From: a virus | IMG/VR virus record: IMGVR_UViG_3300042922_001229 | Span: 1-40,456 of that record | DNA: 40,456 bases | Strand: one strand, 5' to 3' | Shown: piece by piece, positions 4,283-22,781 of the stretch | How the letters are laid out: every line of letters begins with the position of its first letter | How positions within the stretch are numbered: the first letter of the stretch is position 1 | Made by a program: the position numbers and the translations under genes | The notes under the pieces: model-generated | What the model was told of the DNA's origin: nothing | What the model saw: only the letters and a program-made list of their open reading frames with translations | Databases searched by the model: none

Positions 4283-4471
4283 TTAGCCTCCCATCATCCA
4301 AGATGCTGCAGATACAGCAATCACCCAAAGGATGAATGAAAGGGCAATAAACTTAATGAAGTCGATTGCGTTGGCTTTGATGGTGGCGAAACGGGAAGGG
4401 CGCTGTTCTTCAACAGTTGGGTGTTGATATAGGCGTGGAGTCGTTTGACTAGGAATAGGGTTTTGTTTCAT
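4283..4471 (-). CDS. Small single-pass membrane protein of leftward operon
   Basis: This 62-residue protein has a polar N-terminal half rich in Pro, Gln and Thr and one membrane segment at about residues 36-57 (IDFIKFIALSFILWVIAVSA). It is the first gene after the leftward promoter, with AGATAAG before its ATG. Small membrane proteins expressed early can act in host takeover or superinfection exclusion, but nothing in the sequence settles this. No family is recognised. Confidence 0.6.
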   Translation of the reverse strand: MKQNPIPSQTTPRLYQHPTVEEQRPSRFATIKANAIDFIKFIALSFILWVIAVSAASWMMGG

Positions 4472-4492
4472 ACTTATCTCGCATTAAGTTGT

Positions 4493-4816: not shown

Positions 4817-5758
4817 ATGATTCAATTACCTTCAGATATAAAGCTCATATTTTCTGGCCATGAAACTTTTGCACTTCGACAATTATGGCTGAAGAAAGCT
4901 TATTCACAAGTAGAAATTTATCAAAACACTTCTGAACTAGTGTGCTCAAAATCTGTATTTTCATCAAACGATGCGGTTGAACGCTTTGGTGTAGGTAAAA
5001 ATATGGTAGCCTCGATTAAGCATTGGGCATTGGCTACAGATGTAATTAGAGAGAGTAATGATACCAATGGATTCATTCTTGGTGAGATTGGGAAATTTCT
5101 TTTTGATAAAAATGAGGGAGTAGATAACTTTTTGGAGCACGAATCATCTTTTTGGCTAATACATTGGTATTTAGCAGGAAAAAGTATTCGTTCAACTAGT
5201 TGGTACATTCTTTTTAATTATCTGAATAGTAATACTTTCTCACAAGATGAAGTGGTTAATTTAACGATTGAACTTGTGCTAGAGTCAGAAAATGCTAGAT
5301 CGAGAAAGACTTTAGAGAATGATATTGATACATGTATCAAAAGTTATGTTTCGGATAATGAAACCGAAGATGGTATTGAGTCTCTTTTGGCCAAGTTAGG
5401 TCTAATAAAAAAAATAAATAAAAACTTATATCAATTTAACTATGCCTATCATGAATCTTTATCTAACTCCTTATTTTGTTTTACCATTCTAGATTATTGG
5501 GAAAATTTAGAGAAAAAACACGAGTCTTCACAGTCGACTCTTTCTTTTCAAAATATAACCTATGACTATGGTTCTCCTGGCCGAGTATTTAAATTAACGG
5601 AATATTCCATTAATGAACGATTGTCTAGAATTGAAGAGATTTCAAATGGTTACTTGGGGTGGACGGATAGCTCTGGTTTGAAGCAAATAACAAAGCTAAA
5701 AAATATAGCTATCAGTGAGATCAAAATGAATTTGTTGAGATCAGCATATGAGCGTTAA
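4817..5758 (+). CDS. DUF4007 family protein, first gene of cargo operon
   Basis: This 313-residue protein carries the DUF4007 hallmark near its N-terminus, FSGHETFALRQLWLKKAY (residues 12-29). A helix-turn-helix-like stretch follows (AVERFGVGKNMVASIKHWALAT, about 53-74). DUF4007 proteins are known as companions of large ATPases and PAPS-reductase-like proteins in defence loci; their biochemical role is not established. The gene overlaps the following ATPase gene by 11 bases, pointing to coupled translation. Its promoter contains two palindromes, so autoregulation through the helix-turn-helix is plausible. Codon use is AT-rich compared with the phage structural genes, which suggests separate acquisition. 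Confidence 0.85.
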   Translation: MIQLPSDIKLIFSGHETFALRQLWLKKAYSQVEIYQNTSELVCSKSVFSSNDAVERFGVGKNMVASIKHWALATDVIRESNDTNGFILGEIGKFLFDKNEGVDNFLEHESSFWLIHWYLAGKSIRSTSWYILFNYLNSNTFSQDEVVNLTIELVLESENARSRKTLENDIDTCIKSYVSDNETEDGIESLLAKLGLIKKINKNLYQFNYAYHESLSNSLFCFTILDYWENLEKKHESSQSTLSFQNITYDYGSPGRVFKLTEYSINERLSRIEEISNGYLGWTDSSGLKQITKLKNIAISEIKMNLLRSAYER

Positions 5759-8700
5759 TCAAACTCTAAGCGATGTAATTACTATTAATAGAAACTTTAT
5801 AAAATCTATCAATATTGAGTTGGATTTCTATAATTTTGATTCAATAAAGGAATATATAGTTCAACCTTCTGCTCTTAATGTTTTAGACATTATGGCAAAT
5901 CAAATTTCTAACACTAAACAACGGGCATTTACATGGACTGGTCCATATGGTAGTGGTAAGTCATCTTTAGCCTTGGTTTTGGGAAGTTTAGCTAGTGGTA
6001 AGGATGAAGTTCGAGAACAAATAAATAGGAAAATAAGCTTAGATTCCGTAACTTCTGTTTTTTACTCCAATAAACCTTGGTTAGTTACTCCTATTACAGG
6101 GAGAAGAGCTTCAATTGAAGAAGTATTCTTACCAATTTTAAAAGAGCTCACTAATAAACAAGATTTAAAAGTAAAAAGTCGTTCAGACTTGATAGATTTA
6201 TATATTAATTATATTGAAGAGCAGAGCGAAATTGAAGGTAGTATTCTCATTATTGATGAATTAGGTAAGTTCTTAGAGTACGATGCTTATCACAGTCAAG
6301 ATATCGGGTTTTATCAAGAATTATCTGAAAAAACGGCAAGATCAAAAAAGAAAATAGTCGTTATTGGGATTTTACATCAAGCATTTGGTGAGTATGCAAG
6401 ACATCTCGGTTTAGTAAAACAACAGGAGTGGGTTAAAGTCCAAGGACGATATAGTGACTTGCCATTAGTTAGTAGCGTAGATGAAAATATAAATTTAATT
6501 AGTAAAGCCATTTTAAGTACTTATAGACCTAACCATACCTTAAACGTAACGCAAAGCTACATAGCAGCTTATAATGATAGTCACATAACCAAATTAGAAA
6601 ATAAAGCTAAAATTCTTGAAGAATGCTGGCCTCTACACCCAATAACAGTTAATTTGCTAAGCTCGCTTTCAAGAAAACAATTTGGCCAAAATGAGCGAAG
6701 TATATTTAGTTTTTTATCATCTTATGAAAAGTTTGGCTTTCGTGACGTTTTGCAAACTCTACAAGTAGCTGAAGACAGTTATTATTCTCCAGATATACTT
6801 TGGGATTATTTACAAGCGAATTTAGAGCCGATGATTTTTTCCTCATCAGATGGACATAAATGGGCACTAAATATTAATGCGATTGAAAGAGCACAGTCAC
6901 AATTTTCACCAGATCATGTAAAAGTAGTAAAAATAGTAGCTGTTATAGGGCTATTAAAAGATGGTGTTCATTTACTATCTACACAAGCAATTATAGAAAC
7001 TTGCTTTCCTCAATATTCAAGTGATTCAATTTTAGAAATATTAAAGGCGCTAGAGTCTGCTTCTATATTAATTTTTAGGCGCCATTTAAATACATGGGGA
7101 ATTTATGCGGGAAGCGACTTCAATATTGATGATGAAATAAACAAAGTATTAGCTATTCAAGGAGATATTAGTTCCTTAGAGTTGCAGTCTTTATTAGATA
7201 CTGTACCTGTAATTGCCTCACGTCACTATTGGCAGACAGGAACAATGCGATGGATGAATAAAAATATTGTTTTTGAGAATAATCTAAAAGAATTTAGGGG
7301 AAGAAATGATTTAAAAAATAAAAAAGAAGGTAGCTTTATCTTAGTTCTACCCAATAAGTATTATACTTCTGCGCAATCATTGAAGTTAGCAAAAAAACTG
7401 TCTCAAGAAGAGCGAGAAGATAACTTAATTGCGGTAGCTAAATTTGAAAGTCAAACAATTGATTTAATTAAAGAATTGAAGGCTTTAGAGTGGTTGAAAA
7501 AAAATAAGCTAGAACTTCAATCGGATAGTATTGCTTTAAGAGAGGTTGATGCTAGGTTGAGCTCATTAAGAAATTTGTTATCAAACAAATTCAAGAATGA
7601 GTTTAATGACAGTATTTGGTTCGATGGTAATTCTAATAAATATACTGGAAATTTATCTAAATTAGCATCGGATGTTGTTGATAAAGTTTATGCATACGCT
7701 CCTGTGGTTCATAGTGAAATAGTAAATCGTGATGCTTATTCTGTACCGGCTAGTAAAGCAATAAAAGATTTGATGAAAGCAATGTTGTTTTCAAATGATA
7801 TTGAAAATCTTGGTTTGGATGGTACATCTGCATCAGCTAGTTTGTATAAAACAGTTATTAAGAGACAGAAAATTCATACAGATGAGTATGGATCTTGGAA
7901 ATTCGTTGTGCCAAGAGTAGAAGATAATCCATCTATTTTTTATCTTTGGGGTAGAACGATAGAGTTGTTGAGAAGCTCTGATCAGGCAATCTCGGTCGAA
8001 GAGATTTATAATTTATGGAAATTGCCACCATTTGGAATCAAGAAAGGGCTTCTATCAATTTTTAGTTTAGCCTTTTTCCTAACATATAATGATAAACTTG
8101 CATTATACCATGAAGGTATGTTTATAACTGAACTGGATGAAGTTTTAGTAGAGGAATGGATCAGACAACCAAAATTATTTGCATTGCGATTTGTTGAGCT
8201 AAACAATCAGCAGTACGAGCTTATTAAACTAATTTCAAAAGATTTTTCTGAAAATATTGATTCTCAGGAACAAGAGTTAAATCCGCTTGATTGTGCTAAA
8301 CAGCTAGTAACCAAGGTTTTCTCTTTACACCCTTTTGTGAGAAAGACAAATAATTTAGAAATATTAACTAAGAAACTGAGGATAGTATTACTTGCAGCTA
8401 AAGATCCATACGATTTGCTATTTATTGATATTCCTAAATCTTTTGCAATTGAAGATAGTCTAGCAATTTCTAAATTATTAAAAGACGGTTTTAATGAGTT
8501 AGAAAATTTTTGGCCTAAAAAAATTCAAGAGATTAGGACAGAGTTGTTAAAAAGTCTGGACCATTTTGGGGATTTGAATAATCTTAGAGTAAGGGCACAA
8601 TCTCTTCTGAAGATTAATGTTGATCCTAAATTAAAAATTTTCATTAAACGTCTATCGGAGTATCAAGGTACTCAACGAGAGATTGAATATTTAATTAGTT

Positions 8701-9053
8701 TAGCAAGTAAAAAACAAAGTAAAGATTGGATCGATCAAGATATAGAGTTAGCTATTTTACAGTTAAGATCTTGGAGCGAGGCATTTAGGCGTTATGAAAC
8801 TCTTACTTTTACAGAGAATCAAAATAATGGTCGATATGCAATTTCGATGTCTTTTGCCTCACAAGATGGACAGACTATATCTGGTATTGTAGATTTCTCA
8901 AAAGCCGATATAAATCATATTGATAATATCGTTAAAGAGATGAATAAACAATTTTCAAAAAGTAGTTTAAAAAAAGAGATATTACTTGCAGCTATTAGTA
9001 AAATTGGTAGCGAACTACTAAAGGAAGTAAAACAAAATGAAGAGGTAGTCTAA
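5748..9053 (+). CDS. Large P-loop ATPase, core of putative defence operon
   Basis: This 1101-residue protein has a Walker A motif GPYGSGKSS at residues 65-73 and a Walker B ILIIDELGKF at 166-175, followed by a sensor-like strand KIVVIGILHQAF. The first 450 residues or so look like a STAND/AAA-type ATPase module. The remainder is long and mostly helical, without a domain I can name, and ends in acidic and basic helices. In size and build it recalls the large ATPases of BREX-like and Dnd-associated loci, but I cannot assign it to BrxC, DndD or DndH. It overlaps the DUF4007 gene and lies three bases before the PP-loop gene, so the three are one operon. It probably couples ATP hydrolysis to target sensing or complex assembly. 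Confidence 0.8.
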   Translation: MSVNQTLSDVITINRNFIKSINIELDFYNFDSIKEYIVQPSALNVLDIMANQISNTKQRAFTWTGPYGSGKSSLALVLGSLASGKDEVREQINRKISLDSVTSVFYSNKPWLVTPITGRRASIEEVFLPILKELTNKQDLKVKSRSDLIDLYINYIEEQSEIEGSILIIDELGKFLEYDAYHSQDIGFYQELSEKTARSKKKIVVIGILHQAFGEYARHLGLVKQQEWVKVQGRYSDLPLVSSVDENINLISKAILSTYRPNHTLNVTQSYIAAYNDSHITKLENKAKILEECWPLHPITVNLLSSLSRKQFGQNERSIFSFLSSYEKFGFRDVLQTLQVAEDSYYSPDILWDYLQANLEPMIFSSSDGHKWALNINAIERAQSQFSPDHVKVVKIVAVIGLLKDGVHLLSTQAIIETCFPQYSSDSILEILKALESASILIFRRHLNTWGIYAGSDFNIDDEINKVLAIQGDISSLELQSLLDTVPVIASRHYWQTGTMRWMNKNIVFENNLKEFRGRNDLKNKKEGSFILVLPNKYYTSAQSLKLAKKLSQEEREDNLIAVAKFESQTIDLIKELKALEWLKKNKLELQSDSIALREVDARLSSLRNLLSNKFKNEFNDSIWFDGNSNKYTGNLSKLASDVVDKVYAYAPVVHSEIVNRDAYSVPASKAIKDLMKAMLFSNDIENLGLDGTSASASLYKTVIKRQKIHTDEYGSWKFVVPRVEDNPSIFYLWGRTIELLRSSDQAISVEEIYNLWKLPPFGIKKGLLSIFSLAFFLTYNDKLALYHEGMFITELDEVLVEEWIRQPKLFALRFVELNNQQYELIKLISKDFSENIDSQEQELNPLDCAKQLVTKVFSLHPFVRKTNNLEILTKKLRIVLLAAKDPYDLLFIDIPKSFAIEDSLAISKLLKDGFNELENFWPKKIQEIRTELLKSLDHFGDLNNLRVRAQSLLKINVDPKLKIFIKRLSEYQGTQREIEYLISLASKKQSKDWIDQDIELAILQLRSWSEAFRRYETLTFTENQNNGRYAISMSFASQDGQTISGIVDFSKADINHIDNIVKEMNKQFSKSSLKKEILLAAISKIGSELLKEVKQNEEVV

Positions 9054-9056
9054 ATA

Positions 9057-9899
9057 ATGGCTGAATATCATGTTTTAGGTTTATCGGGTGGTAAAGATAG
9101 TGCAGCTTTAGCTGTCTATATGAGTCAATTTCATCCTGAAATAGCTCTTCGTTATTTTTTTACGGATACTGGCAAAGAATTACCTGAAGTATATGCTTTT
9201 TTAGATCGTTTGGAAGGAGTTTTAGGGCAGGAAATTGAATTCATTAATGGTGACCGAGATTTTGATTTTTGGCTAAAACAATATAATCATTATTTACCAA
9301 GTGCTCAAACTCGATGGTGTACTCGTCAATTAAAACTAACTCCATTTAAAAAATGGATTAAACCTTGGTTAGACAATGGAGATATAGTTTATAGCTATGT
9401 TGCAATTAGAGCAGATGAAGAGCATCGAACAGGTCTTATTTCCGACCATAAAAATTTAAAGGTTATTTTACCATTTAGAGAAGATGGTATAGATAAGCCA
9501 AGTGTAATTGAAATCCTTGAAAATGTTGGATTAGGATTACCTGAATATTATTCTTGGCGCTCTAGGAGTGGATGTACGTTTTGTTTTTTTCAACAAAAAA
9601 TCGAATGGGTACGATTGCGGGAAATACATCCAGCAGCTTTTGAAGAGGCAAAAGCATATGAAAAATTGGCTATAGAATCAGGTTCTCCATTTACTTGGAC
9701 GCAAGGGGAATCTTTGAGCGATTTAGAGAAACCTGAACGTATTGCTGGGATTAAAGCTGAATTTGAAAAAAGACAGGCAAGAATGCAGAAGAAAAAGAAA
9801 GTTAACCCGTTACGTCCACAACTCATAGATATAGTTGATATCGATGAGCTTTATTTGGAAGATGAAGGTGGTGGGGCCTGTCTAGTTTGTCATAAGTAA
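9057..9899 (+). CDS. PP-loop PAPS-reductase/DndC-like protein
   Basis: This 280-residue protein starts with the PP-loop SGGKDS (residues 10-15) of adenine nucleotide alpha-hydrolases, followed by FFTDTGKELPEVY. Cysteines occur in RWCT (Cys88), GCTFC (Cys173, Cys176) and ACLVC at the C-terminus (Cys275, Cys278), a pattern compatible with an iron-sulfur cluster or a zinc site. DndC of DNA phosphorothioation and BrxP of type 4 BREX belong to the same superfamily. The other DndABDE genes are absent, so a full phosphorothioation pathway is not encoded here. It is the last gene of the operon and is followed by a terminator. A role in sulfur transfer or adenylation of a substrate is inference. Confidence 0.82.
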   Translation: MAEYHVLGLSGGKDSAALAVYMSQFHPEIALRYFFTDTGKELPEVYAFLDRLEGVLGQEIEFINGDRDFDFWLKQYNHYLPSAQTRWCTRQLKLTPFKKWIKPWLDNGDIVYSYVAIRADEEHRTGLISDHKNLKVILPFREDGIDKPSVIEILENVGLGLPEYYSWRSRSGCTFCFFQQKIEWVRLREIHPAAFEEAKAYEKLAIESGSPFTWTQGESLSDLEKPERIAGIKAEFEKRQARMQKKKKVNPLRPQLIDIVDIDELYLEDEGGGACLVCHK

Positions 9900-9901
9900 A
9901 A

Positions 9902-9932
9902 TTATAGGTAGAAGCTAATATTCTACCTATAA
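9902..9932. terminator. Bidirectional terminator between convergent cargo operons
   Basis: TTATAGGTAGAA (9902-9913) pairs perfectly with TTCTACCTATAA (9921-9932) around a 7-base loop. It starts two bases after the stop of the PP-loop gene and ends 26 bases before the end of the convergent response-regulator gene, so it can serve both operons. The flanking T-runs are weak. Confidence 0.6.
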
Positions 9933-9958
9933 AAGATAGTTAATTTATTATTAAATTT

Positions 9959-11824
9959 TTAACCTTGTGTATTAATACCAATAACTAAAGTATGTTTTTT
10001 TGTATTACACTTTGGTAAAGGTGAATCTATATTTTGGAAGAAGATGTCAATTCCTTTTAAATTCATTTTACCTGAAATTTTATTTGCTTGAATAATTTGA
10101 TCTAAAAGTTCCTTAGGTGTAAGTTCTAGTTCGGGGATATTACTTTTTAACCAAATAGTTAAATCAATACTCAGTTTGTCTGATAATCTGTATTTATCTG
10201 ATGCAATCGCAGTAACCTCCGAAAAATCCTTCTGATCTGAGAAATTTAAATTCTCATTATCTTTTTTAATAAGAGTAATCTTATATTTACATGAGCCTAA
10301 TCTGCTTATACGAGTTTGGGCTGGTTTCAGAATTGTTACAGCTGTATCTTGTTGGAGAGAGATAACATGTTCATGGCGCATACGACCTATTATTTTTAAT
10401 GGTTCTTTTTTTAGAAGATCAATAAAGTCTCCAACAGAAACACTTAATAAATGTTTTGAGTTTGGTTCGATATCTAAAAATTCTACAATATTTGAAGCCT
10501 TCTTTCTATGTAAAATAGATACCAAAGTTTTATCATCATAGGGGATATATTTAGAGTTGCTCTTTTTAGATATATTTGCTTTTATAAATAATAATGAATT
10601 TAAGGAGTTCTTTTCTGATCTAGAAATACCCGTTAAATTACATTGTTGAGTAATATTTATTAAAATCGTATTGTTTTTTATATTATATAAAATACTACCG
10701 AATGGTAAAATAGAAAGTAAGTTCTCAGTGAAATAAGATACTAGCCTTTTTTTATCTTTTGTTTTTCCACTAGGATATTTACAATACTTAGATAATAAAT
10801 CTATTTCTTCACTATTTCCACCAACATAAAAGTGATGAGAAAGGAGCATTCGATGGGCATTTACATCTAACTCGTATGCAAGACTTTTATTCGTATATTT
10901 TTTAAAAGACTCTTCTAGAAGTTTTACAGAATTTTCTAAATTACGAGATTCTTCAATATTCCATAATAACTCTTTTGCTAAAAAATTATTAATCATATCA
11001 CTGAATGCTACTTTATCATCATTAGAATCATTATATATTTGCTGCATTATAGTAGCATCAAGTTTCCATAACATTTTAGAAAACTCTTTTTTTGCACTAT
11101 CAAGCAAAGCTTCCCAAGTTTTGATTAAATTTTTAGTGTTATTTGATATTTCTCTTTGTGATATTAGTTGGTCAGCTAAAAGTCTTAGTTTAATCTTTCC
11201 GGTATCTGGTGCTTTTAGCTCTATTTTAGGTAAAAGTGTTAATCCGGTAGCGCTGATATATGTCTCTCCAAAATAATCACTTAATTTTCCTGTTTCAGTA
11301 TTAAAGTGAGATGAAATTAAAATTATAGGAGGAAGATTCTCTTCTTTTGAAATATCTTGTAGAAAACTCTTAGAGTCATCTTTTCCAATTTTAAGATCTA
11401 TAATAATTAACTCAAATTGAGATAAATTTAAGTTTTTTATAGGAGAGGGTAAAATCTCATAAAAAGAATGGGAGTATTCTGTTAGTGGGAATGCTTCATT
11501 TATAACTTTTTTAACTTTAAGTAATGATTCATGAGTACTGTATATTGTACTGAGGGGCTCTAATAAAATTTTTGGAGCATTAATCATAAAGTATTCATGC
11601 GAAAAAAAATTATTGAAGAGTTCTTTGGGACTCATCTGAATTAATTCATCTATAGAAACTTGTTTAAAATATTCTGAATTACTATTTATGAATGAAAGTA
11701 ATACCTTTGTTTCATCTTGATATTCATCGTTAAGATTGAGAAAGAAATCCTCAGCAAGTTCTCCATACATTTCAGGACGTAAACCATGAATTTCATCATC
11801 AATAACTAAAATTTTCTTTTTCAC
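9959..11824 (-). CDS. Receiver-domain response-regulator-like protein
   Basis: This 621-residue protein begins ILVIDDE (residues 5-11), the acidic pocket of a receiver domain. It later has FELIIIDLKIG with candidate phosphoacceptor Asp143 and PPIILISS (about 165-172), matching strands 3 and 4. About 120 residues separate strand 1 from the phospho-Asp strand, where a normal receiver has about 40, so the domain carries a large helical insertion. The remaining 400 residues are not recognised and show no familiar DNA-binding or nuclease motif. Translation probably starts at GTG 11824, 17 bases after the kinase-like gene. The pair looks like a two-component system adapted to sensing, with this protein as the output partner. 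Confidence 0.7.
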   Translation of the reverse strand: MKKKILVIDDEIHGLRPEMYGELAEDFFLNLNDEYQDETKVLLSFINSNSEYFKQVSIDELIQMSPKELFNNFFSHEYFMINAPKILLEPLSTIYSTHESLLKVKKVINEAFPLTEYSHSFYEILPSPIKNLNLSQFELIIIDLKIGKDDSKSFLQDISKEENLPPIILISSHFNTETGKLSDYFGETYISATGLTLLPKIELKAPDTGKIKLRLLADQLISQREISNNTKNLIKTWEALLDSAKKEFSKMLWKLDATIMQQIYNDSNDDKVAFSDMINNFLAKELLWNIEESRNLENSVKLLEESFKKYTNKSLAYELDVNAHRMLLSHHFYVGGNSEEIDLLSKYCKYPSGKTKDKKRLVSYFTENLLSILPFGSILYNIKNNTILINITQQCNLTGISRSEKNSLNSLLFIKANISKKSNSKYIPYDDKTLVSILHRKKASNIVEFLDIEPNSKHLLSVSVGDFIDLLKKEPLKIIGRMRHEHVISLQQDTAVTILKPAQTRISRLGSCKYKITLIKKDNENLNFSDQKDFSEVTAIASDKYRLSDKLSIDLTIWLKSNIPELELTPKELLDQIIQANKISGKMNLKGIDIFFQNIDSPLPKCNTKKHTLVIGINTQG

Positions 11825-11841
11825 AATAAATACTCTACTGA

Positions 11842-14232
11842 TTAATCTTTAGGTAATTCAAGAATAAAAGTGCGTAAACGACCATCCTCTTCAGCTTCAT
11901 CATCTAGATAAATTTTTGAATGATGAAATTTTGCGATTTCAGAGGCGATATATAGTCCTAAACCTTTACCATTTTTCTTATTTGAAAAATAAGGTTGAAA
12001 AATATCATATTTATAATTTGGATCAATACCTGGACCATTATCGCTGATAAATATCACACGAGATTTACTATCGATATCAATTATAATTTTAGGTTGAATT
12101 TCGCCAGGTTTAAGGCCTTGTTGTAACCAATAAACTGAATTAACTAAGAGGTTTTCAAGGATTTGTGCAACTAGACCTCTTACCATTCTTACATGTATAG
12201 GTAGATAATTTTTTTCACCATCTACATATAAAGTAGCTTCAATATTATGACGTTTGAATTTAGGTTGGTAGCCTTCAATAATAGTATTAAGTTGTGCACA
12301 TATATCAAACTCTTCATTAGTTTGTTTGCTTGCAGGACTAAGTATATCAATACTTTTGATACGCTTATTTGTTGCATCAATCTGTTTCTTTAGTTCTTTT
12401 ATAATATGTTCGACTTGAGATGGATTATTCTCAGTATTATTTAATCTGATAAGTAATTCTGCTGTATTTTCAGTTATTCTTGATAATTCATGAGCTATTA
12501 TATCTGCCATCTGCCCGAGATTAGCTAATTCAATAATCTCAGTACTTTTTTCAGATAAACTATGAACTCTAGTATTTAAATCACCTATAATCTCATGTTG
12601 ATTTTTAATTAGTTGTTGTATTTCTTCAATTTGTTGGTTATCTTCTTCATTAAGTTTTCTTGATATCTTTGATAGGTTTTGTTCAGCTTTACGAATAGAA
12701 ATACCAGAAGAATCAATTCTATTATCGATATCCTCTTGTAAAACTATCTCTTGTACTGTTTTATAGGCATGAATATGCTTCAACAAATCTTGTCGAACAG
12801 TTTCCCCTAATAATTTTTTCAAAATTTGAAATTCTTTTGTTTCAGTTAAACTTTGCCGATTAGCTGTGTCCTGTAGTTTAGGGTTTTCAATTTTTGAGAT
12901 TTCAAGTGCACCAATAGTTTGATACCTGTTTAAGGTATATCCTTGCCCACGTAAAGCTTTATTATCCCACTCCAACCAATCATCATTTAATCCTCCAGTA
13001 AAACCAATTCTGAAATTATCTCTATAAATACTAATACCACCAACCCATTTATCTAATTCTTTACGTATTGCTCGTAGTGTTCTTTCTGGTGTTGATTTAA
13101 GATCTTTTCTATTAAACCAGTACAGAGTTACTTTAAACTTACCTAATGATTTTAAGTCATTTTCAAAATTTAGATTGTCTTCTTCTTTTAATATATTAAT
13201 TAAATCTTTTTTAAACCATGTCCTAGATTCTGATGATGTATTTCCTTGCCATCTTACTTTACCTGTTAGCCATAAATCATTGTTTTCATCACTAGGGTTA
13301 AATATATACTGTGCTTTAAAATTTGATTGCTCAACCAGCCAATTAGGAATATTGGTTAATCTCTGCCTTTTTCCATTTTGATAAATATTAATAGGAAATC
13401 TTCTTTCATCACTATTGAAAGGATTCTTTAAGCGACGTATATATTCTTCTACGAATGACTCAGTTTTTTTGATATCCCATTCTGATAATAAATCTTTAAT
13501 AACGATTTTTGTTCCCATCTTAAAATCACAAAGTAGACTTATTGAATTAAGTGTAATATCAGTTAATTCAATATCTGGATCATCAAATTCGCCCCAATTG
13601 AAAATTATACTATTTCCATTTTTCTCGTTAGCGGTCTTAGTTATTACTTGAGCAATATTTCCAAGCTTCATCATAGAAAGACGGCCAATACCTTTTTCTC
13701 CTAATAATATCCTCCCATCTTCTATTTGCTTATGTAATTTATTGGGAGTTCCAATGACCAAAAAAACCTCCTCTAATTCTTTACTTGTCATTCCTTTTCC
13801 AGTATCTATTACTTGAATAAAATAATATTTATCTTTTATTTTTTTTATTTCCTTATCAATAAATTTTAAAAAGTCATCTTCTAATTCATAATTATCGAAT
13901 TGATCTAAAGTGTTATTAATATCTTCAATAAAAGGTGTTTCTAAAAATTCCTCGTTGCTTTTCAAATCTACAGTTGTATATTTTTGCATATTAGCTTGGA
14001 TCAAATTAAAGATTTTTTTTCTATCTAAATTTTCTTTTCGATAGTTTTCTATTAATATTTTTTCTAATAGATTTAAGTTCATTGGGAAGTTGATGTCAAT
14101 TTCTACGCTTTCCGAACCAGCATCAAATGAATTTTTCATTAGCTCATTTAGAGCCATTTCTTCTGAGGTAATAAGTTCAGCTCCAAGATGTCTAAGAGTT
14201 CTTGCAGCTATTTTAAAGGTTGTTGTAAACAT
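11842..14232 (-). CDS. Protein with two GHKL ATPase modules and a histidine-kinase core
   Basis: This 796-residue protein has an N-terminal Hsp90/MutL-like ATPase (N-box ELMKNSFDA with Asn34; DTGKGM at 143-148; GEKGIGR at 178-184), then a middle region to about 490. A coiled coil (505-565) leads to a HisKA-like helix with His581 in AHELSRI, and a second ATPase domain follows (ENLLVN 693-698, DNGPGI 731-736, GKGLGL 755-760). The C-terminal half is a complete histidine kinase; the N-terminal half resembles Hsp90- or MORC-like ATPases of defence systems. No membrane segment is seen, so it is cytoplasmic. It lies downstream of the cI-like gene in the same direction and upstream of its presumed receiver partner. 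It could sense an infection state and phosphorylate that partner. Confidence 0.8.
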   Translation of the reverse strand: MFTTTFKIAARTLRHLGAELITSEEMALNELMKNSFDAGSESVEIDINFPMNLNLLEKILIENYRKENLDRKKIFNLIQANMQKYTTVDLKSNEEFLETPFIEDINNTLDQFDNYELEDDFLKFIDKEIKKIKDKYYFIQVIDTGKGMTSKELEEVFLVIGTPNKLHKQIEDGRILLGEKGIGRLSMMKLGNIAQVITKTANEKNGNSIIFNWGEFDDPDIELTDITLNSISLLCDFKMGTKIVIKDLLSEWDIKKTESFVEEYIRRLKNPFNSDERRFPINIYQNGKRQRLTNIPNWLVEQSNFKAQYIFNPSDENNDLWLTGKVRWQGNTSSESRTWFKKDLINILKEEDNLNFENDLKSLGKFKVTLYWFNRKDLKSTPERTLRAIRKELDKWVGGISIYRDNFRIGFTGGLNDDWLEWDNKALRGQGYTLNRYQTIGALEISKIENPKLQDTANRQSLTETKEFQILKKLLGETVRQDLLKHIHAYKTVQEIVLQEDIDNRIDSSGISIRKAEQNLSKISRKLNEEDNQQIEEIQQLIKNQHEIIGDLNTRVHSLSEKSTEIIELANLGQMADIIAHELSRITENTAELLIRLNNTENNPSQVEHIIKELKKQIDATNKRIKSIDILSPASKQTNEEFDICAQLNTIIEGYQPKFKRHNIEATLYVDGEKNYLPIHVRMVRGLVAQILENLLVNSVYWLQQGLKPGEIQPKIIIDIDSKSRVIFISDNGPGIDPNYKYDIFQPYFSNKKNGKGLGLYIASEIAKFHHSKIYLDDEAEEDGRLRTFILELPKD

Positions 14233-14438: not shown

Positions 14439-15116
14439 TTAAATTTTTCTATACATTCCAACGACTTTTCCAACTAAACGGCAATCAGGAGTAAGTTTAA
14501 TTACTTTTTCTTCCCAATTAGGGTTAAGCGGTTGTAAATATTTAGTTGTACCTTCAATTACTAATTGCTTAAAAGTTGCCTCTGTGTCTCCTGAACAGGC
14601 AATGATTACTAAATCTCCAGTTTTTAGGTCATTTACAGAAAAGTCTGGGTTTACATAAATTCTGTCTTCAGGCTCAAATCTAGGAGACATAGAGTATCCA
14701 GTTACTATAAGTCCGTAACCATTTTTACCAGCATCATTATTGTGAGGAAGCCACTCATTTACTTCTGTATCTTTTAAAACAGTTTCAACATTAGAAAAAG
14801 AACCGGCTGCTACCCATGAAATCACTGGAATTAAATCACCCTTTAAAAGAATTTTCTGAGATAAGTTTACGTTGTTATCTAATTGTTTTATATTAATACT
14901 TTGATCTAATACACCTACTTTAAGTCCCATTTTCTTTTCTAAATTTCTGGCTGATCTCTCTCCAATATTCCTATGACCATTTACTAATTGAGAAATATAG
15001 CTAGGTTCTAAATCATTCTTTTTGCAATATTCAGCATCATTTTTTGCTAAACCTTTTGATATTGCATTATCAATAATCCGTCGAAGGTTTTGTTTTCTAA
15101 TTTCAGAAATATCCAT
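14439..15116 (-). CDS. cI: CI-like repressor with S24 autocleavage domain
   Basis: This 225-residue protein has an N-terminal Xre-type helix-turn-helix (DLEPSYISQLVNGHRNIGER, about 35-54) and a C-terminal LexA/S24 peptidase domain. The self-cleavage site is Ala104-Gly105 in WVAAGSF, with catalytic Ser142 (GYSMSPRF) and Lys183 (ATFKQLV). It should keep the prophage silent and be inactivated through RecA after DNA damage. There is no clear ribosome binding site before the ATG at 15116, so a leaderless transcript as in lambda PRM is possible. Likely operators lie at 4552-4590 and 15161-15223. Confidence 0.93.
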   Translation of the reverse strand: MDISEIRKQNLRRIIDNAISKGLAKNDAEYCKKNDLEPSYISQLVNGHRNIGERSARNLEKKMGLKVGVLDQSINIKQLDNNVNLSQKILLKGDLIPVISWVAAGSFSNVETVLKDTEVNEWLPHNNDAGKNGYGLIVTGYSMSPRFEPEDRIYVNPDFSVNDLKTGDLVIIACSGDTEATFKQLVIEGTTKYLQPLNPNWEEKVIKLTPDCRLVGKVVGMYRKI

Positions 15117-18324: not shown

Positions 18325-19872
18325 ATGGATGCAAGCGGGTTATTCACTGTTTTGGGAATTTTTGTAGCAATTATCACATTAATATCTGAAGAGAAAAGAC
18401 AAGATTTTTTCTTAAGAGCATCTCTGGGATATTGGTTATTTTTTCTTGCATTAAATCTACTTGCATTAGGGGTTATTTATTCTAATGTGATAACTACAGT
18501 CACAAAGTTAAAGCCTATTAATTATTTTTGGGGATTTGACGAAAAAACTGCAGTTTTGACCAGTGTCATTATAATGAGTTTTCTTTTTATTTATAAGCTG
18601 TTAGGTAAGAAACTGCCACGATTGCAGTATAATAAATGGAGTAATATCTCCTACCGTTTATTAAGGGAAAAAAAGTACCATATCCTAAGTTTTTTACTTG
18701 AGAAATATATTGATCAATTTTTAAAGATTGTCAATAAAAATACAACATATGAGAAATTTTATAACTATGTTTCAAGAAACTCTAGAGATAGTATTGAAGA
18801 AATTTTGAGCTTCCCACCAGTTCAAATTTCTCGTATTCGTAAAATAAAAAGATTTATATTTACAAAAATTTTATCATTCTTGCCAACCGAAATTGGTTGT
18901 AAACCTCTACTTTATCAATCTATTGAAAAACTATTAAAGTCATCAGGTTTTCTAAGCTATTTAGTTGAAACACATCCACTAATTCCAGTTAAGCTAACTT
19001 CTAGTCCTTCATTTTTACAGATAGATGAGTTTACTGATAACTTTTTTAAATACTTAATTTCTAATAAAAATAGTCTTTTATATAGAGAAATTAAAGATAA
19101 TCAACATTTTATGTATTCAACCGGATATCGTATTCAACCGGAAAATTTTATTCTAAGTCACTATTTTTCAGATCCAAATGTAGCAATTAACGCTAACATT
19201 TGGAAACCGATAGGGGATTATATTTGCAAATATATTAAAGAGCAGAATGGAAAAGATAATTTTTATAATAGTTATTGTGAATCATTCAGTTACACTGAAG
19301 AGCCGTGGGAATGTCCTATTTTTGTTGGTATACAGTTTTTTGATATTATGGTTAAGACTACTATATATAAGAAAATAAATGATCATATGTGGCTGATGTA
19401 TTATGAATATTTTCTCAATGGAATTCTTGATAATATTGATAGAAGCAAAAACTCTGAGATATGGCAAGAATTTCCTTTAAAATTTGACTATTTAATTTAT
19501 TGTTTAGTCTCGAATTGTTCGGAGTGGGTTGTTGCTGCAAACTATTTATATGAAGGTAATTCAAAAATTTTGCCTATTGAACGAGCAAGCTACTGTCTAG
19601 GAGGGTTGTTAAGAAAAATTCTCTTATCAACAAATATAGCTGTCCGTCAAAAGATTTACCACTTGGAAATTCTCTTAAAGACTATGAGAGATCTAGATCT
19701 TAAAGCGCAAAATCATTTATCGCAGCAAATATTCCATACTTTAGTGAGAGAATATCAGGATGGGCCAAAAGATCTAGACTTAACATGGTTAAAAAATACT
19801 TACTTAATGGTTGACCATGTTTTGAGAATCTCAGGATCTACATTTGATAATGAAATCAAAAAAGCACCTTAA
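18325..19872 (+). CDS. Membrane-anchored protein of 515 residues, accessory cargo
   Basis: Three membrane segments lie near the N-terminus (about residues 5-20, 35-58 and 75-93), followed by a soluble region of about 420 residues rich in aromatic and basic residues. No catalytic motif or family is recognised. It is a single gene convergent with the three-gene group to its right and shares a palindromic terminator with it, so it is a separate cargo unit. The AT-rich codon use differs from the adjacent early genes, which suggests lateral acquisition. Membrane proteins in this place are often lysogenic conversion or exclusion factors, but that is inference. Confidence 0.7.
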   Translation: MDASGLFTVLGIFVAIITLISEEKRQDFFLRASLGYWLFFLALNLLALGVIYSNVITTVTKLKPINYFWGFDEKTAVLTSVIIMSFLFIYKLLGKKLPRLQYNKWSNISYRLLREKKYHILSFLLEKYIDQFLKIVNKNTTYEKFYNYVSRNSRDSIEEILSFPPVQISRIRKIKRFIFTKILSFLPTEIGCKPLLYQSIEKLLKSSGFLSYLVETHPLIPVKLTSSPSFLQIDEFTDNFFKYLISNKNSLLYREIKDNQHFMYSTGYRIQPENFILSHYFSDPNVAINANIWKPIGDYICKYIKEQNGKDNFYNSYCESFSYTEEPWECPIFVGIQFFDIMVKTTIYKKINDHMWLMYYEYFLNGILDNIDRSKNSEIWQEFPLKFDYLIYCLVSNCSEWVVAANYLYEGNSKILPIERASYCLGGLLRKILLSTNIAVRQKIYHLEILLKTMRDLDLKAQNHLSQQIFHTLVREYQDGPKDLDLTWLKNTYLMVDHVLRISGSTFDNEIKKAP

Positions 19873-19883
19873 GGTGCTTTTTT
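19858..19883. terminator. Perfect palindromic bidirectional terminator over both stop codons
   Basis: AAAAAAGCACCTT (19858-19870) is followed directly by its reverse complement (19871-19883), giving a 26-bp perfect palindrome with A- and T-runs on both sides. It contains the stop codons of both convergent genes. Both proteins therefore end in the same residues KKAP. Confidence 0.9.
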
Positions 19884-20546
19884 AAACTTAGATACATCGA
19901 TTGGTTTTGTGTATTCTTCGGGAAGATATACTATTGCTTCTTGTTTATAGGGGCTAATTCCATAACATTTGTTGTTGCCACACAAGATTGGCTGAATCAA
20001 AGTTTTTTTACCATTTCGAGTGATGTATCCAAGATTAGGGGGTGGTTGTGTTGAAGCTAGAAGAATAGATACTTCTTTTTGAACTTCTTTAACTCCTTGA
20101 GAATATTGATATAAAATTAAGCCTAAAGTCAAAATTAGCATACATAGGTAGAAAACGCTCAGTCCCCAAAAGCTGTTTAAAAAATCTTTTATTTCATTTT
20201 TAATTTTTGAAGATCTTGATTTTATAAAATCTTCTATTTTACCTATAAATTCTTTAAAAGTTACTTTCTCGTTTTTATATTTTAGATGCCAAACAAATAT
20301 AAGAGCTAAAAACAAAAATATAAGTAATCCTCCACCTATCTTTATTAATTTTGATAATGTTTCTAAAACAAGTAAAGCAGTATTTAAGTAGCCAAATAAC
20401 ATTACCTCTGGATAGTTCAGGCTTAAAGAAAATATTTCAATCTCTAATGGTTCACAATATCCTGCATAACGGGCGAATTGACAGGCATATACTAATGCGG
20501 GTAAGTAGATAAGAAAAAAAGATATACGTTTTAAAAACTGTTCCAT
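19869..20546 (-). CDS. Polytopic membrane protein of accessory three-gene group
   Basis: This 225-residue protein has about four membrane segments (near 8-22, 48-62, 70-87 and 127-147) and a charged loop between the third and fourth. A C-terminal soluble part of about 70 residues carries a cysteine pair (ILCGNNKCYG, Cys189 and Cys194). No family is recognised. It is the last gene of a minus-strand group with the degenerate-HNH membrane protein and the McrB-N/HNH nuclease. Small gaps between the genes suggest one transcript. It may be a membrane effector or partner of those proteins. Confidence 0.65.
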   Translation of the reverse strand: MEQFLKRISFFLIYLPALVYACQFARYAGYCEPLEIEIFSLSLNYPEVMLFGYLNTALLVLETLSKLIKIGGGLLIFLFLALIFVWHLKYKNEKVTFKEFIGKIEDFIKSRSSKIKNEIKDFLNSFWGLSVFYLCMLILTLGLILYQYSQGVKEVQKEVSILLASTQPPPNLGYITRNGKKTLIQPILCGNNKCYGISPYKQEAIVYLPEEYTKPIDVSKFKKAP

Positions 20547-20583
20547 TATTTATCCATTATATTTTCTATGAAATGAGTATGTT

Positions 20584-21522
20584 TTAAGAGTGGGATTGTA
20601 AATTTCTTTTCTTTAATAAAAGCTTTTCCCGATCTGCCTCAGCATTCACAACATGCATTTTCTTATAGCAATTTGAGCAAAGTGAAATAGTCTTCTCTAC
20701 TGTATCTGTTTCACTTGGAGAAAGTTTTTTAATACTATAAATTTCGAAATAGGGACTACTATTTTTATCTCTAAATGGAGCGGGTTTTTTACAGAGTTGA
20801 CATACATTTGTATTCTTATTTTTTCTTTTAGATCGAAGGGGATTATACTTTTTAATAAATGATTTAAATGAAAAATTATACTGTTTCACCTGCAACTTAT
20901 TTAATTTTTTTAATATTTTAATTGTATTGTTATATTTTTGAGAATGTATTATTGAGAAAACTGCACAGCAAGTCGTTGTTATAGCTAGTGTTAGTAATAA
21001 TACTATAGTCATTAATCTTAGATCTAATGGAAGCGGGGATATGTATTTTTCATAAATTAGAATTAAAGCAAAATTCAACATTCCTAATATGAAGTAAAAT
21101 AGTAAAAATATAATCATTTTCAATCGTAAAAATCTTACTCTACTAATTAATTCTTCTCTATTGTTTTCTTTAATGAGGGTGAAATACTCCTGGTTGGTTT
21201 TTATTAAACTAAGGAAATAGTAAAATTGATCAGGAAAATTTTTAATAAAGAAATCTGTAAATTCAGAAGGAATCCCAATATTCTCTGTTAATTCATCACT
21301 GTCAATCTTTTTTGTAAATGTATTTATTTTATAAGATGGTGGTTTATTAATATATTTTTCAAAATATTCAGATGCTTTTTCTCGTCTATTTTTCTTTTTC
21401 TCAAATTGTTTAAGTGTAAGGAGATAGGAACCTCTTGTGTAATAAAAAGCAGCAAAGGCAATAATAATAGAAACAATTGTAAGGAAAATGGTTGCAAAAA
21501 AAGTAAAATCTATATTGTTCAT
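20584..21522 (-). CDS. Membrane protein with degenerate HNH domain
   Basis: This 312-residue protein has membrane segments at about 6-28, 136-157 and 169-192 and a C-terminal zinc-finger-like domain. CQLCKKPAPF (Cys241, Cys244) and LCSNCYKKMH (Cys282, Cys285, His290) match the HNH nuclease layout C-x2-C ... C-x2-C-x4-H. The expected catalytic EVHHI is replaced by EIYSI (Tyr262, Ser263), so the nuclease centre seems lost while the zinc scaffold is kept. I start at ATG 21522 rather than TTG 21537. The neighbour upstream is an intact HNH nuclease. A membrane-bound sensor or effector, rather than an enzyme, is the likeliest reading. Confidence 0.7.
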   Translation of the reverse strand: MNNIDFTFFATIFLTIVSIIIAFAAFYYTRGSYLLTLKQFEKKKNRREKASEYFEKYINKPPSYKINTFTKKIDSDELTENIGIPSEFTDFFIKNFPDQFYYFLSLIKTNQEYFTLIKENNREELISRVRFLRLKMIIFLLFYFILGMLNFALILIYEKYISPLPLDLRLMTIVLLLTLAITTTCCAVFSIIHSQKYNNTIKILKKLNKLQVKQYNFSFKSFIKKYNPLRSKRKNKNTNVCQLCKKPAPFRDKNSSPYFEIYSIKKLSPSETDTVEKTISLCSNCYKKMHVVNAEADREKLLLKKRNLQSHS

Positions 21523-21538
21523 ATTAAAAAATCTCAAT

Positions 21539-22627
21539 CTAATCGTATTGTTGATATAAACCAGTCTTAAGGTAAATATTCTGCAATTCTTTAAGTGTTA
21601 AATGAATTCCTTGCTTGATCAGACGGGAATTACGTAATTCAAATAAAATTTGAAGCTTTTCTTTAATAACTCCTTTATCGCCGTAATGTAGGGCTCTATG
21701 ACAGTTTGGGCATAAGCAAACGATATTTGAAGTAACATCTAGAGAGACATTGAAATTTAGTTGCTGGCTCATGGGTATTAGGTGATGTCCCTCAACATAA
21801 AGCCTCTTATTTTTTGTTATAAATGTCATATGAGATGGATCAATTTCGCATTGAAAGTTAGCAAGTTTTAAGGCCTTTCTGCTTTTGTCTTTTGAAACCT
21901 TAAATTTAGTCTGCTGTATGGATAAAGTACCAGGTACAGTCTCTTTAACTTCAATAAGCTGTGTGATATCAACTTGCTCTTCATGACTTTGTAATAAAGC
22001 CTGGTATGAGTGATCTGATACTGGAACTAAATTAGCAAGATTTTTATTTGCATTAGCATATAGTGTTTCATAATCTTTGATTAGAATTTTGAATTGATCT
22101 TCGATAATTTGGTCATCTATAGTTTTTAATAAATCTTTTTTGTATTCAAAATTTTTAATAGCGTATTTTTGATATTTTTTACCTAAGGTTCTAGTCGCTT
22201 TTAAGTCAAAACTACCTAATTTTAGATTTGAGTAAGGAGAGTTTGAGCCTACGTATTCTAATGCAAGAGAAGCGAAATCTACTAAATCATCTTGATTTGC
22301 ATCTGTCACTCCTTGCAATAGCCCCATGAAGCATGAGCTCATATCAGCTGAAAACAATATACCCAGGTAATAACCACGTTGCGCCGAGTTAGTTATATCT
22401 GTATTTGTACATAAAACCCAAGGTATCTCTGCCCAATTACCTTTTCCATGTGACCAGCTTACTTCATAGCTAATAGAAGAGTCAGAATACTTATCAAGCC
22501 AGGTTTTAACTGTACTTGTGATGTCCTTAGACAGGGCTTGATAATGCCCCTGTAATTTGTTGGTATTATATGGCTGTTGTTTTGCATATAGATAATGATC
22601 AAGAACATTTAAGAAATGTTTTTTCAT
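21539..22627 (-). CDS. McrB-N (DUF3578)-HNH restriction endonuclease
   Basis: This 362-residue protein joins an N-terminal McrB-N/DUF3578 domain (SHGKGNWAEIPWVL, then SAQRGYYLGILFSADM, about residues 59-96) to a C-terminal HNH nuclease. The HNH part has Cys260, the catalytic pair VEGHHLIPM (His281, His282) and CLCPNCHRALHYG (Cys306, Cys309). Such proteins act as modification-dependent (type IV-like) restriction enzymes that read altered bases through the N-terminal domain and cut with HNH. It heads a minus-strand group with two membrane proteins. I start at ATG 22627; a TTG at 22642 is possible. As cargo of a prophage it would restrict phages with modified DNA. Confidence 0.85.
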   Translation of the reverse strand: MKKHFLNVLDHYLYAKQQPYNTNKLQGHYQALSKDITSTVKTWLDKYSDSSISYEVSWSHGKGNWAEIPWVLCTNTDITNSAQRGYYLGILFSADMSSCFMGLLQGVTDANQDDLVDFASLALEYVGSNSPYSNLKLGSFDLKATRTLGKKYQKYAIKNFEYKKDLLKTIDDQIIEDQFKILIKDYETLYANANKNLANLVPVSDHSYQALLQSHEEQVDITQLIEVKETVPGTLSIQQTKFKVSKDKSRKALKLANFQCEIDPSHMTFITKNKRLYVEGHHLIPMSQQLNFNVSLDVTSNIVCLCPNCHRALHYGDKGVIKEKLQILFELRNSRLIKQGIHLTLKELQNIYLKTGLYQQYD

Positions 22628-22781
22628 TTTTGATAAAATCAAGTATTTGAAAATTATTGCTTATTATATAGTCTTGATCAGAGAATATCATTATAAGTAA
22701 TAAGTAAAGTTGCGTGTTTTACTTCTAATTGGATAGATTAGCCTATAAAATTTAGCATATCTTTAATTTTCAAAGGAAACC

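Follow-up and report, generated by a model that had tools for sequence, protein, structure and literature searches.

A prophage-borne sspBCD operon converging on a kinase/receiver pair of an Ssp-dedicated clade: a candidate phosphorelay partner of DNA sulfur marking

The stretch of DNA analysed here (the window) is a whole 40.5-kb IMG/VR viral record, IMGVR_UViG_3300042922_001229 (40,456 nucleotides), in which five genes between positions 4817 and 14232 form a block of two converging parts: a plus-strand operon of three genes and a minus-strand pair encoding a histidine kinase and a receiver protein (Table 1). The record also encodes an integrase, Sak4, a CI-type repressor, a terminase, a portal protein and head and tail genes, and the phage DNA closest to it comes from Acinetobacter prophages; the carrier of the block is thus a virus lying dormant in an Acinetobacter-type bacterium. 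An earlier note on this DNA, made from the letters alone, had described the arrangement as an operon running towards a minus-strand pair across a shared terminator, and this description holds. All five open reading frames (ORFs) were recovered at the same coordinates, a 12-bp inverted repeat lies where the two parts converge, and the labels given to the products are borne out by Pfam (DUF4007, PAPS_reduct, HATPase_c_3 together with HATPase_c) and by the signature residues of a receiver (REC) domain. Shuffling the 60-bp intergenic gap 5000 times gave an equally long stem once, and terminator-like sites over the whole region were not more numerous than expected by chance.

Table 1. Positions of the block genes, the terminator and context features (window positions, unless a locus handle of our survey is given)
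Feature	Position	Strand	Basis
sspB, 313 aa, DUF4007	4817..5758	+	PADLOC SspB E=1.8e-98; Pfam DUF4007 E=6e-78
sspC, 1101 aa, ORC/Cdc6-type AAA+ ATPase, BrxC homologue	5748..9053	+	PADLOC SspC E=0, 1116 bits
sspD, 280 aa, PP-loop ATP pyrophosphatase, PAPS-reductase-like	9057..9899	+	PADLOC SspD E=4.9e-134; Pfam PAPS_reduct E=4e-9
Bidirectional terminator of both parts; its perfect 12-bp stem encloses a 7-nt loop and has T-rich sequence on either side	9902..9932	.	
Receiver protein, 621 aa: N-terminal REC, helical linker, novel C-terminal output domain	9959..11824	-	
Soluble histidine kinase, 796 aa	11842..14232	-	Pfam: N-terminal HATPase_c_3, C-terminal HATPase_c
Small phage gene, left border of the cargo slot (context)	4283..4471	-	ORF list
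CI-type repressor of the prophage, beside the cargo (context, outside the system)	14439..15116	-	
Protein of ~805-817 aa, recurrent near Ssp loci	L014:22243-24660, L015:11288-13702, L034:12455-14905, L045:7424-9862, L032:2-2074, L207:10346-12784		

Judged by its best-scoring families, the plus-strand operon is sspB-sspC-sspD, the modification half of a single-stranded DNA phosphorothioation (Ssp) system. Its genes overlap or almost abut, as expected of one operon, and each product is matched by the PADLOC model of the same name. The solved SspB structures 6juf and 6lb9 match the window SspB with E=4e-22; a phmmer search found no solved relatives of SspC or SspD. SspB is predicted to be a DNA-binding protein with three winged helix-turn-helix domains and to act as the nickase of the Ssp system, while SspD, which carries the PP-loop motif SGGKDS, would be responsible for sulfur insertion; the Walker A motif of SspC reads GPYGSGKS. 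Weaker PADLOC matches, of SspC to BrxC (1e-89) and of SspD to BrxP (2.5e-9) and, faintly, to DndC (6e-6), might suggest a variant of BREX type 4 or of Dnd. However, the SspB, SspC and SspD models score far higher, and PADLOC and Pfam assigned none of the block genes to PglZ, BrxL, DndB, DndD or DndE. The best-scoring families contradict such an assignment, to which we give hardly any credence, and the lack of DndABDE, PglZ and BrxL, which the earlier note had pointed out, is what one should expect of an SspBCD operon. Within the window, our own profiles detected neither an SspA-like gene nor SspF, SspG or SspH; SspE gave no PADLOC match in the block and the adjacent genes, and an SspE profile found none over the whole window.

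The kinase of the minus-strand pair combines two ATPase halves. Its input half is a GHKL ATPase of the MORC/Hsp90 type, with E30, N34, D37, the motif D143xGxG, K180 and G183, and its kinase half consists of a HisKA-like segment with H581 followed by a HATPase_c domain bearing N694, N698, D731xGxG, G757 and G759. Key residues of both ATP sites and H581 are invariant among 38 aligned sequences, with relatives being 27-42% identical; in the kinase half, H581, N694, N698, D731, G733, G735, F745, G757 and G759 are conserved in all 38. The AlphaFold2 model of the kinase (predicted local distance difference test, pLDDT, 81.5) matches in Foldseek the human MORC2 structures with DNA (9cdh/9cdj), Hsp90/TRAP1 and HK853, and in a profile search the N-terminal half led to Endoplasmin and the C-terminal half to LvrB/HK853 sequences.

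The partner protein is recognized less easily. Pfam detects its REC domain weakly (E=0.0014), which may be due to an insertion of about 90 residues preceding the phospho-acceptor D143. Still, the REC signature formed by D9, D10, D143, S171 and K200 is invariant in all 40 sequences compared, with relatives being 11-26% identical, and response regulators lead the PDB fold matches of its AlphaFold2 model (pLDDT 75.6), none of them reaching E=0.001. Its predicted fold and signature residues together identify the 621-aa protein as a receiver protein. Its output domain resembled nothing recognizable in Pfam searches of 40 members, in a PDB profile search, or in Foldseek searches against the PDB and viral models, what matches there were being insignificant or due to the receiver domain, and the Pfam searches revealed no output domain common to the 40 receivers, DNA-binding ones included. 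A PemK/MazF-like barrel, which the pattern FGDxL...TPxCDL had led us to suspect, was rejected, as hhalign gave it a probability of 1%. The C[D/N]L motif of this domain reads CDL with 97% conservation, and the window copy has CNL at residues 395-397; divergence of this copy, or loss of an active site in it, is possible.

PADLOC defence models gave no real match to the kinase/receiver pair, and the comparison with defence profiles proposed earlier therefore had a divided outcome: SspB, SspC and SspD were matched and the pair was not. The opinion that the five genes correspond to no named system has to be withdrawn for the three-gene operon and stands for the pair. In the same way, the description of the block as new or poorly described fits the pair, whereas the SspBCD half is named and has been studied experimentally.

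We assessed how the pair is distributed. Single-sequence scans with the window kinase against genome contigs and with the receiver against viral contigs gave no matches, and an alignment was needed as the query. Among 72,556 plasmid records, 16 carried a near-full-length relative of the kinase (hits H8-H23); SspC was present in 16/16 of them, and SspB, SspC and SspD lay nearby in all 11 that were examined. The five-gene convergent layout is common to Acinetobacter baumannii CP040048, whose SspC and kinase are 38-53% identical to those of the window, Polaromonas and Ensifer. A genome scan with the kinase alignment yielded 80 loci; by our own profiles, 42 of them constitute the family proper (at least 469 bits) and 38 fall outside it (at most 389 bits). 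SspB/C/D were found within 10 kb in 36/42 family loci, as compared with 0/38 loci of related kinases outside. The receiver gene accompanies the kinase in 40/42 family loci and in 0/38 of those outside; in L046 and L053 the kinase gene runs to the end of the available sequence. As for the exceptions to Ssp linkage, SspD lies just beyond the flank in L023 and L024 and on another contig of the same metagenome-assembled genome (MAG) in L018; the genomes of L026, L044 and L055 hold no SspD beyond weak cross-matches. The pair at L055:10007-14345 has no Ssp genes within 10 kb and is either an orphan pair or part of an incomplete MAG.

In a tree of 160 kinases the family of the window forms one clade (n=55, support 1.0), and it is exclusively this clade that is linked to SspBCD: the operon lies in the flanks of 49/55 members and of 0/105 sequences outside. 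The clade spans Pseudomonadota, Acidobacteriota, Verrucomicrobiota, Planctomycetota, Chloroflexota and Patescibacteria; its record titles name alpha-, beta- and gammaproteobacteria, Acidobacteria, Akkermansia, Planctomycetes, Chloroflexota and Ca. Magasanikbacteria. The kinase/receiver pair is dedicated to SspBCD, and the suggestion that the five genes make up one or two modules is right in that they belong together, as two modules, and recur in other genomes. One could still suppose that two unrelated cargo modules merely share one prophage slot, as they lie on opposite strands and have partly independent histories. This would contradict the linkage just described, and it does not account for the loci with the pair inserted between sspC and sspD, nor for the co-directional position of the pair downstream of the operon in most loci; we regard it as very improbable. 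Because relatives of the pair almost always adjoin SspBCD, many "orphan" sulfur-marking systems probably have in it the partner that they seemed to lack.

The geometry and the phylogeny of the two parts show how they are held together. Among 48 loci that could be classified, the pair lies downstream of the ssp genes in the same direction in 31, converges on them as in the window in 12, precedes them in 2 and is inserted between sspC and sspD in 3 (L004, L049, L054). Kinase and receiver genes are strictly co-inherited, with a Mantel r of 0.94, which is similar to the value for SspB and SspC (0.96); SspD correlates with SspB or SspC at 0.79-0.81, and the two modules correlate with each other at 0.30-0.42, all these values exceeding those of 2000 permutations. 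As correlations within the modules are much higher than those between them, we see here two tightly held modules that have been recombined with each other. Exchange of SspBCD with SspE or SspFGH is already known (PMC8092258). In the limited flanks available, SspF, SspG or SspH genes are present in 19/55 family loci. An SspE profile run over all family loci found no SspE near the pair in other species, and a search for another conserved nuclease accompanying it, by clustering of unassigned neighbours, returned only integrases (7/55 loci).

These observations bear on the main rival explanation, according to which the pair would serve as an ordinary two-component regulator of ssp transcription (or of that of sspFGH or sspE), tuning expression and phosphorothioate (PT) levels and having no effector role. 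Such a function would agree with the conserved residues of a His-Asp relay, with the linkage to ssp operons and with the co-occurrence of SspF, G or H genes, and regulation of SspE by a histidine kinase has been a published speculation for Acinetobacter (PMC7464106). On the other hand, no DNA-binding output domain is common to the 40 receivers, structure searches being led by matches to the receiver domain, and the pair is mostly found downstream of sspD in the same direction, not divergently as regulators are. Since SspE was never found beside the pair, the pair is unlikely to regulate SspE in these loci. We consider a plain regulator of ssp expression unlikely on the whole, while taking it more seriously than any other alternative.

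The pair has relatives linked to other kinds of DNA modification. Bellieny-Rabelo et al. (2021, PMC8011034) described the HEF_HK (PF19191)/Response_reg_2 (PF19192) elements, two-component-like, with a paraMORC ATPase, and linked to type II restriction-modification (R-M) systems and C5-methylases. Both have a soluble kinase built of HATPase_c_3, DHp and HATPase_c, an adjacent gene with a divergent REC and no known output domain, and linkage to a DNA-modification system. Both ATPase domains are present in 38/38 family kinases, and HEF_HK is detected at E<=0.01 in 15/38 (best 3e-6); the window kinase stays below this cut-off (E=0.064), and Response_reg_2 matches 2/40 receivers, weakly. The Ssp family, however, is a separate and fully supported clade whose neighbours are SspBCD, and by a crude motif regex a C5-methylase-like ORF occurs in 0/42 family loci as opposed to 15/38 related kinases outside. 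The sequences plainly relate the pair to the HEF_HK elements, as a clade of its own with a different DNA-modification partner. PMC8011034 does not mention Ssp, PAPS or DUF4007. What was known before is therefore the existence of R-M-linked relatives (2021) and two passing mentions, in 2020 (PMC7464106) and 2025, that ssp genes of Acinetobacter have a histidine kinase nearby; the Ssp-dedicated clade, its breadth, its modularity and its anatomy are new here. By keyword, the open-licence PMC text of a 2024 study of PT machinery and of a 2026 study of BREX diversity does not describe the kinase/receiver pair.

Detocs is a three-gene phosphorelay defence consisting of a kinase with a TPR sensor and two REC proteins, one of which carries an effector. 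If the pair works as we propose below, it would share with Detocs the logic of a His-Asp phosphorelay controlling a defence effector. It differs in having two genes with a single REC gene, a MORC-like input half and a tie to a DNA-modification system, and no TPR was among the families matched by the 38 family kinases. The GHKL clamp fold of the input half is also that of eukaryotic MORC2 and of the MORC/MutL-type GHKL ATPases of R-M systems (PMC2292703); in contrast to these, the GHKL domain of the window forms one protein with a complete histidine kinase, and this protein has a receiver as its partner.

We propose that the five genes make up a single Ssp-type system of two parts, borne by the prophage as cargo, in which the pair senses DNA as a phosphorelay dedicated to Ssp and either takes over from the restriction component or controls it. 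Taken as a whole, we hold this statement to be probable, if not strongly so. In the first module, SspBCD would mark DNA with single-strand phosphorothioates; as no SspA is encoded, a host cysteine desulfurase such as IscS is assumed, and IscS can replace SspA in Vibrio anguillarum FF-93 (PMC8092258). The second module would be a dedicated two-protein phosphorelay. Its MORC-like ATPase clamp may engage DNA and sense its state, distinguishing foreign, unmodified or replicating DNA from PT-marked DNA; ATP-driven dimerization of the clamp would switch autophosphorylation of H581, the phosphoryl group would pass from H581 to D143 of the receiver, and the output domain would then execute or license the response. 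Here and in most relatives, this module would stand where one of the two tested restriction partners, SspE and SspFGH, would otherwise be, and where SspFGH co-occurs it could be its trigger, its brake or a second effector. Missing restriction partners are to be expected, as 2,211 of 2,678 sspBCD loci are reported to lack both SspE and SspFGH (PMC8092258).

The block thus shares with the SspABCD-SspE and SspABCD-SspFGH systems of that paper the three-gene SspB/C/D operon and the division into a modification module and a separate, exchangeable partner module. Unlike them, it has neither SspE nor SspFGH and is partnered by the kinase/receiver pair, whose relatives co-occur with SspF/G/H in about one third of the loci and with SspE in none. 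A further step would be a third kind of Ssp defence whose restriction effector is the pair itself: the MORC-type clamp would read PT marks or their absence and, through the phosphorelay, switch on a new output domain that is toxic or nucleolytic; we put this forward tentatively, as a possibility that we would not yet favour.

Several observations weigh against the two-part system proposed above. It is not always the sole partner, as SspF/G/H genes are present in 19/55 loci, and it could therefore be a regulator only. It is also a minority companion of Ssp: in an independent sample of 27 species-level loci collected by SspD, with seed genomes excluded, the pair occurs in 3, SspFGH-like genes in 6 and SspE in 1, and one of the three pair-bearing loci, L194, appears to come from the same genome as L017. 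The L055 genome has the pair and no true SspD, the output domain of the receiver shows no recognizable catalytic fold and no nuclease was found, and the tree correlation between the modules is modest and stems partly from shared taxonomy.

The five genes look like defence-type prophage cargo, and to this extent the earlier idea of anti-phage modules is retained; as we found no phage-resistance test of the five-gene set in the open-licence PMC literature, the word "defence" is used here as our inference. It might otherwise be assumed that SspBCD serves for modification only, either as self-marking of the prophage against resident Ssp/PT-dependent restriction or as a source of epigenetic marks, with the pair in support. 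The carrier is indeed a prophage, and self-marking has been suggested for the sspD of an A. baumannii prophage and an epigenetic role considered possible for Ssp lacking SspE (PMC12421847). Yet a complete SspBCD with a dedicated relay exceeds what self-marking needs, the five genes are also found outside phages, on plasmids and chromosomes, and a related prophage has at this slot another cassette, which includes a methyltransferase gene. We find this explanation rather improbable, more so than a plain regulator.

If the proposed phosphorelay exists, a single system would connect DNA clamps of the MORC type with two-component phosphorelays and with sulfur marks on DNA, and if the pair is indeed an effector, a DNA-modification defence would be run by two-component signalling in place of a PT-sensing nuclease. 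The question also concerns A. baumannii global clone 2, where 5,518 of 5,530 Ssp loci lack sspE and where Ssp, the most frequent defence system in A. baumannii genomes, has no known effector (PMC12421847, 2025). That Ssp region resembles the window block in having SspBCD without sspE and a two-component histidine kinase in the region. An A. baumannii block in our collection (L002), which may differ from the clone 2 locus, has the five genes in the same convergent order; the window block differs from it in lying in a prophage and in sequence, SspC and kinase being only 38-53% identical and the receivers about 30%. With a two-gene candidate partner and its catalytic residues pinpointed, the questions of orphan sspBCD and of the A. 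baumannii effector become directly testable.

Other companions of Ssp were seen in the same survey. Near or directly downstream of sspD in L195, L201, L202, L206, L209 and L010 lies a set composed of a helicase-like or similar-sized protein, a MORC-type GHKL ATPase of ~600-660 aa and a PLD-type protein; in L202 it comprises a PbeA-like helicase (E=2e-26), an MzaB-like GHKL ATPase and a DndB-like gene. This set has the look of a further restriction partner, so far undescribed, for orphan SspBCD. A protein of ~805-817 aa with a MORC-like N-box (e.g. NQQASPIPALVEKITNGIDA) also recurs near Ssp loci, and the copies tested gave no Pfam or PADLOC match.

The block occupies a site of the prophage that evidently takes various cargo. 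The left flank of the window matches Acinetobacter phage MD-2021a up to position 4483, beyond which MD-2021a has a different cassette: in its slot (L176:7958-10753), which adjoins the CI repressor, lie one gene for a DGQHR-domain protein and one for a methyltransferase of the RsrI type. The slot between the small early gene and the repressor is thus a variable cargo site. No close relative of SspC or of the kinase was found in 50,697 phage records. One other viral contig (L096, IMG/VR 3300025014_000154) carries sspB-C-D followed by the kinase, which ends at the contig end, and may be phage or flanking host DNA. The prophage of the window also bears a second cargo block besides SspBCD, at 19872-22642 on the minus strand. 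One of its proteins, of 367 aa, combines MrcB_N (Pfam E=8e-26) with HNH (7e-6); its neighbours are a protein of 317 aa whose C-terminus is related to its own and an unassigned protein of 225 aa. PADLOC calls this block a type IV modification-dependent restriction system.

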